A stretch of DNA of 64,000 nucleotides from the NCBI GenBank assembly GCA_949299935.1, contig CASGCE010000034.1, forward strand, positions 1-64,000, written 5' to 3'. The stretch's first letter is position 1. Each line of letters starts with the position of its first letter. The DNA comes from an uncultured bacterium. GTDB lineage: Bacteria > Cyanobacteriota > Vampirovibrionia > Gastranaerophilales > Gastranaerophilaceae. Positions 1 to 64,000 of this stretch are shown piece after piece. The notes beneath the pieces were generated by a model. It did no database searches. It was not told where the DNA came from and was given only the letters and a program-made list of their open reading frames with translations. A program made the translations under genes and the position numbers.

Positions 1-86
1 CATGATATCGATTAGGTCAAAACCCTTGTCTTTTCTACTTAGAGGAGTCGCCCCCCCCCGTTACAAGTCTTTGAAGCTTCATCCAT
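1..86 (-). CDS. 5' end of unknown gene with G9 tract; frame broken here
   Basis: A left-going start is complete: ATG at 86-84, Shine-Dalgarno AAAGGAG at 100-94 seven bases upstream, and a promoter at 109-136. After nine codons the frame enters nine consecutive G (plus-strand C 51-59) and, as written, stops at TAA 41-39 after 15 residues. With eight G it would also stop; with ten (or seven) G it stays open to the window edge, reading MDEASKTCNGGG then ATPLSRKDKGFDLIDIM. The gene is therefore either a phase-variable gene in the OFF state, a pseudogene, or a homopolymer miscount. No family can be recognised from 29 residues. Confidence 0.55.
51..59. repeat. Homopolymer C9/G9 tract
   Basis: Nine consecutive C on the plus strand in an AT-rich chromosome, lying 27 bases inside a left-going reading frame. 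No other G or C run of this length was noticed in the window. Such tracts slip during replication and are the usual engine of phase variation. Confidence 0.9.
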
Positions 87-108
87 GACTTTTCTCCTTT
101 TGTAACTC

Positions 109-136
109 ATTATAACAAATTTTTTATCATTTGCAA
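109..136 (-). promoter_or_regulatory. Promoter of the G-tract gene
   Basis: On the minus strand, -35 TTGCAA (136-131), 16-bp spacer, -10 TATAAT (114-109). The expected start is near 102, giving a short leader that carries the Shine-Dalgarno at 100-94. It lies back to back with the promoter of the gene at 179. Confidence 0.7.
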
Positions 137-63396: not shown

Positions 63397-64000
63397 TTAC
63401 CAAGGATAATTTTCAGGTATAGTCCACCCGCTAACTTCTATCAACTTACCACAAAGAAAATTTTTATAAGAGTCGGTATTTTCCTTATTACAAGCATATC
63501 TACTACTGCCATTAATCAAAGTATACTCATCCTCAGCTGAATAACCGCAAAATTTTACTCTAAATGGATTACCCTTTTTTGCAGGATCTATATTTTTGTA
63601 CACATCAAAAACAAATATATCACGACCCACCTTATTGGGCTTTTGTACTCCATTTATATCCGCCAAACACCATATATAATTGGCAGGTACATTGGCAAAA
63701 AATGAAAATATTACACCGTTGTTCAATAACATAAAATTTGTTATAATACCACTGTTTCTGCTAGGATTACTTGCTGCAGGAAGAATAACATAATCACTTA
63801 ATTCACTCTGCTGCATTAATTTTGCCGATTTAAAATATGGTAAATAATATTTTCTGATGAAAGGCTCAATAATCTCAAAGCTGTATGATCCAACTTGCGG
63901 GAATTCCCACGTAGACATAGGTCCGTTATCAACTTCCGAAAAACGCACGGCATTATTAAGATCTGCATATACCTTTTTTAGTTGTACAACTGTTTGTTTT
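63397..64000 (-). CDS. Type IV pilin-like protein, N-terminus beyond window
   Basis: Frame open from the right window edge to 63397, so the gene is partial; a GTG at 63948 is an internal codon, not the likely start. The upstream residues KQTVVQLKKVYADLNNAVRF are the alpha-helix of a pilin. The head contains DINGVQKPNKVGRDIFVFDV, the same motif as in pilins at 30962 and 43212, and ends GWTIPENYPW, a tail common to these lineage pilins. Secreted/cell-surface after prepilin processing. Confidence 0.78.
   Translation of the reverse strand, partial: KQTVVQLKKVYADLNNAVRFSEVDNGPMSTWEFPQVGSYSFEIIEPFIRKYYLPYFKSAKLMQQSELSDYVILPAASNPSRNSGIITNFMLLNNGVIFSFFANVPANYIWCLADINGVQKPNKVGRDIFVFDVYKNIDPAKKGNPFRVKFCGYSAEDEYTLINGSSRYACNKENTDSYKNFLCGKLIEVSGWTIPENYPW

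Follow-up and report, generated by a model that had tools for sequence, protein, structure and literature searches.

The element at the left end of contig C34, in a MAG of the order Gastranaerophilales (1.68 Mb, 37 contigs; G000 below), probably forms the beginning of a type IV prepilin gene that is phase-variable and belongs to a large dispersed family; we put the probability of this reading at about three in four. The best reading of the family as a whole is that of default-OFF contingency genes that would switch by replication slippage, with 40-76 loci in the richest genomes. The window, that is the whole 64,000-nucleotide stretch analysed, begins with this contig. The original prediction from the window, a candidate phase-variable locus in the OFF state, gains support from the same architecture in dozens of paralogues and in sister species. 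Beyond that prediction, the analysis adds a whole gene family, its type IV prepilin product and a poly-C version.

The tract-bearing leader in the window

The promoter, Shine-Dalgarno sequence (SD), ATG, nine codons and G9 run described earlier on the minus strand are all present where they had been placed (Table 1). Starting from the ATG at 86-84, nine codons lead into the G9 tract, which is followed by CGA CTC CTC TAA. The two predicted outcomes, a stop after 15 residues with nine G and a frame open to the window edge with ten, are both exact. Because the contig starts 50 bases past the tract, within repeated sequence, it does not include the body of this copy's gene; a search of its own genome with the first 1500 bases returns 40 matches. 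A second tract-bearing prepilin of the family reaches into the other end of the window, its G9 leader lying ~180 bases past the right edge.

Table 1. Features of the window element and of related copies
Feature	Position	Strand	Remarks
Promoter: -35 TTGCAA (136-131), 16 bp, -10 TATAAT (114-109)	109-136	-	Similar promoters precede other copies
Shine-Dalgarno sequence AAAGGAG	94-100	-	Read from sequence
Leader ORF at nine G: MDEASKTCNGGGRLL, 15 aa, stop TAA (41-39)	39-86	-	Translation
G9 tract (C9 on the plus strand); OFF length, G10 would be ON	51-59	-	Orthologues G9, G9, G9, G10
Start of the prepilin-frame stretch on adding one G: ATPLSRKDKGFDLIDIM...	1-50	-	Prepilin beyond the contig end
Possible RNA stem-loop between the G tract and CTCCTCT (47-41)	41-59	-	Prediction only
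TTGACC, -35-like half of an internal promoter	15-20	-	The -10 would fall past the window edge
Second tract-bearing prepilin of the family, body	63397-63999	-	G9 leader at C34:64181-64189
Poly-C prepilin leaders (C9, one C8), own leader peptide	L333-L337, L348, L350 (G000)		

The tract had also been called very improbable by chance in such AT-rich DNA. Taken alone, the tract is weaker against chance than claimed: shuffles of the 64 kb window give an expectation of 0.30 for GGGGGGGG, against two overlapping matches in the actual sequence, and 5 of 100 shuffles have at least two. The case rests on the association of tracts with prepilins across the genome.

A dispersed family of tract-bearing prepilins

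Pattern searches of the window genome return 54 G/C runs of at least eight bases and 71 prepilin matches. As many as 52 of the 54 runs lie at most 520 bases upstream of a prepilin motif, in regions that make up about 2% of the genome, an association that rules out a chance tract. The two remaining runs are the window's own and one at C16:155490, the latter without a pilin. Conversely, 52 of the 71 prepilins carry a tract (read on the coding strand, 44 are poly-G and 8 are poly-C), while in most of those devoid of it a normal SD-ATG is found 12-21 bases ahead of FTLAEV. As in contingency genes, the homopolymer lies near the start, inside the coding frame, and is longer than chance. In general, a copy has a promoter and an SD, then a start codon with a small number of variable codons, (AAC) G9 CGACTCCTCTAA, an open stretch, and KGFTLAEVLITLGIIG. 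This last segment is the type IV prepilin N-terminus, and the stretch before it is open with one extra G. A 6-base SD match with an ATG is found in 190 of 259 scored elements. In G076, from a second genus, 40 of 56 runs precede prepilins; the other 16 G runs are not upstream of a recognised prepilin (e.g., C1:29975 and C5:55728) and possibly mark other switchable genes.

Several leaders of G000 depart from the common form. The poly-C copies have a different leader (such as MKTITTKAVQIVAPP) and a different codon phase, with the same OFF design: among the seven that were read, six are C9 and OFF, C10 giving the pilin frame, and one is C8, also OFF. L093 (~90-105, plus strand; G000:C36:54097) contains both a T9 and a G9 in its leader, with a start-frame stop between them. 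L340, L342 and L343 have leaders of 317-344 bases that are open in the pilin frame and contain sequence resembling a dispersed intergenic repeat.

The orthologous locus was reached in other species through relatives of the gene neighbouring the window's tract, with one assembly per species; among these relatives, none came from a second strain of the window's species. Four sister species have the locus, with G9 in three (OFF) and G10 in one (ON). The +1 frame at the three G9 orthologues encodes 366, 367 and 397 aa, and the G10 orthologue as it stands 347 aa, so that the long frame foreseen to the left with ten G is found there. All four frames lead into a prepilin and contain its motif. Separately, a MAG named Fusobacterium sp. 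carries a G15 prepilin leader in frame, i.e., ON (L052, about 2870-2990), and its neighbouring gene is related to that of the window.

For the breadth of the family, a pattern requiring at least eight G and, within about 70 bases after them, a prepilin motif was matched in 100 of 383 genomes and 17 of 52 genera of the order; its reversed control gave zero matches. A phylum-wide sample returned no clear case outside the window's order, its single match (G469) looking like chance, and no copies were found in viral contigs. Within this range the richest genomes hold 76, 67, 56, 47, 45, 44 and 41 loci; in the 67 of G061, some tracts at scaffold gaps are counted double. At four G061 loci (L179, L207, L213 and L219) such gaps (NN) fall within the G tract or next to it, as would happen if assembly had run into conflicting lengths. 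G057 has 179 G runs of at least eight bases in all.

Pilin frame, product and pilus machinery

Between tract and pilin, the pilin frame is open in 265 of 269 elements. The four with a pilin-frame stop were left out of the codon count, so the absence of stops there (0 of 4888 codons) arises by construction, which the 265 open frames do not; the other two frames have stops at 468 of 4739 and 595 of 4838 codons (about 10%). No ATG, GTG or TTG occurs in the pilin frame after the tract in 207 of the 265 elements. Leader substitutions exhibit a weak codon-position bias only, as expected from a loosely constrained leader. The 178 bodies read to a stop codon have a median length of 235 aa, with 5 under 120 aa, and the best full-length identity to a paralogue within G000 ranges from 38 to 93%. 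Stop-free pilin frames and intact bodies rule out decayed pseudogenes.

Pfam analysis of six proteins reports the N-terminal methylation motif (PF07963; G/A before F, E at +5) above the cut-off in four, and just under it in the other two (18.3 and 20.4 bits against 21.2). N_methyl is the only domain reported, with the addition of DUF6613 in one protein. The window genome also has one prepilin peptidase and four matches to T2SSE-type ATPases; the family thereby combines the methylation motif with pilus ATPase and peptidase genes in the same genome, as type IV prepilin-like proteins do. A structure model from four sequences has a long N-terminal helix followed by strands, with a mean pLDDT of 43, too low to use.

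Tract lengths and coding state

Across many species, 225 of the 259 elements with a scored start are OFF and 34 are ON. Among 83 elements from the window genus, the orthologous loci and one relative, 70 are G9, five G10, four G7, two G8, one G11 and one G6. The usual length in the main architectures is G9 in G000 (31/32), G10 in G050 (31/37) and in the two main architectures of G057 (23/24), G11 in G076 (13/14), G12 in G063 (9/12), and G9 and G10 in G134 (23/24); since paralogues are related, counts across copies are not independent. These usual lengths are all OFF in the six genomes, and a change of one base would reach the nearest ON length, which is G10 or G11, or G8 for the G9 copies of G134. 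Designs requiring +1 and -1 both exist across genera. As in contingency genes, an intact full-length gene is present at another tract length, lengths vary, and both states occur.

The original prediction had held that a constant nine-G tract would speak against switching, and this is found in part: G9 dominates the window genome, and G7, G8, G10 and G11 are present in the genus. Other genera use G9-G13. The near-constant length in G000, more uniform than free switching might give, is a point against switching. A MAG consensus would report the majority length of the population, which may explain lengths more uniform than in clonal isolates, and variants could also be hidden by the assembly of near-identical repeats. 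A single architecture of G134 comprises 13 copies with G9, 10 with G10 and one with G11, so lengths do move there, mostly between OFF values; G050 has 31 copies with G10 and five with G11.

Proposed mechanism and alternatives

In the proposed mechanism, ribosomes would initiate at the SD/ATG ahead of the tract. As long as the tract has the length typical of the species, they would leave it outside the pilin frame and soon reach a stop, and therefore no pilin would be made. Slippage of the DNA polymerase, adding one base in species with G9 or G10 and removing one in those with G11 or G12, would join the start to the prepilin frame, and prepilin peptidase would then remove the long leader. With most loci OFF in most cells, each cell would therefore show a small, random and heritable subset of pilins. 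The architecture, the frames, the excess of OFF copies, the constraint that keeps the pilin frame open as far as the tract and the pilus machinery genes can all be read from the genomes; phase variation of the pilins is a strong prediction and not a demonstration. Tract length would change within populations, and expression with it; the pilins may serve in adhesion, or in escape from phage or immunity.

The main rival to replication slippage is slippage at the RNA level. RNA polymerase would add or drop a base, a fixed fraction of the mRNA would encode the pilin while the DNA stays unchanged, and selection would keep the tracts at a fixed OFF length that gives dozens of surface proteins a low, set expression, perhaps aided by a stem-loop of which the tract is part. 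Near-uniform tract lengths within a genome would suit such a scheme, as would stops at most 15 bases past the tract in the assembled-length frame, which are commoner than in synonymous shuffles (z 4.0 to 6.3 for G000, G010, G015, G050, G057 and G076; the excess is not clear in G063 or G134, z 1.2). A CTCC-like pyrimidine block 3' of the tract, able to pair with it, is also over-represented relative to synonymous shuffles (17 observed v. 6.1 in G000, 24 v. 3.7 in G050, 12 v. 2.6 in G076 and 10 v. 2.2 in G134, counts that are not independent since the copies are related). Its predicted pairing is mainly with the tract in G000, G050 and G057, with the SD in G063, and with either in G076 and G134. 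As for a known RNA element, Rfam returns no match over the gathering score. However, the characteristic sites of transcriptional slippage are runs of A or T (PMC3711429; PMC1088944), whereas the tracts of this lineage, for all its AT-rich DNA, consist of G or C. Moreover, paralogues that share an architecture vary in tract length, and the DNA of some loci is itself in the ON state; we consider RNA-level slippage rather unlikely.

The two other readings move the shift to the ribosome or the start to the pilin itself. Programmed ribosomal frameshifting on the G run, joining leader and pilin, would agree with the uniform offset of several genomes: 26 of 31 scored elements in G057 and 32 of 39 in G050 need one extra base, which corresponds to a -1 shift. 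Nevertheless, the opposite shift is mostly needed in G076 and G063, and both are needed in similar numbers in G134. This difference in direction between genera argues against frameshifting; genes known to use it always shift in one direction, at a slippery site that is conserved, a feature not seen here. The same design also exists with poly-C, and some copies are in frame without any shift. With both directions and both G and C tracts in use, frameshifting as the sole cause is judged unlikely, and as an explanation at all it is very improbable. For the window's genus, the pilin might instead be made from an internal promoter and an ATG near the mature N-terminus, the tract leader being minor or regulatory. 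In 23 of the 34 complete G000 copies the leader contains TTGACC-N17-TATAAT-N6-ATG, or a near match, in almost every case 27 bases upstream of FTLAEV and with a palindrome around the start; the window's copy shows its TTGACC, and one tractless prepilin (L348, position 891) has only such a start. If used, this promoter would make pilin independently of the tract. The unit is, however, absent from the 11 other complete G000 copies and from all sampled copies of G050, G057, G063, G076 and G134, and the frame between tract and internal ATG stays open, which a start of this kind (TTGACM-N17-TATAAT-N6-ATG) does not need; we regard it as improbable. Single copies with the TTGACM form and a possible leaderless start also occur in G004, G007, G010 and G015.

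Comparison with known phase-variable systems

For this commensal lineage of non-photosynthetic cyanobacteria, the genomes analysed point to a very large and unreported set of surface pilins that are putatively switchable. A literature search, with subscription papers and preprints outside its scope, found nothing relevant on phase variation, pilins or pili in the lineage. If the reading of a phase-variable prepilin family is true, uncultured gut relatives of cyanobacteria hold one of the larger switchable gene sets known, made up mostly of pilins and with OFF as its default state. Tract-bearing prepilins are liable to be missed by gene callers or given a wrong start, and the pilin repertoires of the order are therefore probably under-annotated.

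In the Neisseria pilC genes, a poly-G tract in the signal-peptide region sets the frame ON or OFF. The family described here likewise concerns a type IV pilus protein with a poly-G run in its N-terminal leader; pilC, however, is present in one or two copies and encodes a pilus adhesin, whereas this is a large family of prepilins.

A precedent in setting and tract anatomy is offered by Bifidobacterium breve UCC2003, in which the sortase-dependent pilus loci bbr_0113 and bbr_1889 carry a G10/G11 tract early in the pilus gene (PMC9187656). Their reference state is OFF, with a short upstream ORF and a stop, and a one-base change fuses the ORFs; deep sequencing has measured this replication slippage and detects an ON minority, with 93.4% G10 and 6.5% G9 at one locus in culture, while at the other locus the ON length accounts for about 30% in mice (PMC9187656). 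Both cases thus concern a gut commensal with a G tract early in a pilus gene, an OFF reference and a one-base fusion. B. breve differs in having two loci for sortase-type Gram-positive pili, as compared with type IV prepilins at dozens of loci per genome, and its switching is measured, while that of the present family is only predicted.

Campylobacter jejuni NCTC11168 has 29 poly-G/C loci (PMC4965091). Like the window genome, it combines an AT-rich sequence with many poly-G/C tracts of similar length, on both strands and linked to surface features. Its tracts belong to many unrelated gene types in mixed ON and OFF states, whereas nearly all those of the window genome belong to one family and most are OFF. 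Judged by its anatomy, the predicted mechanism would fall in the same class as these known systems, and would differ from them in its scale, its bias towards one family and its near-universal OFF state.
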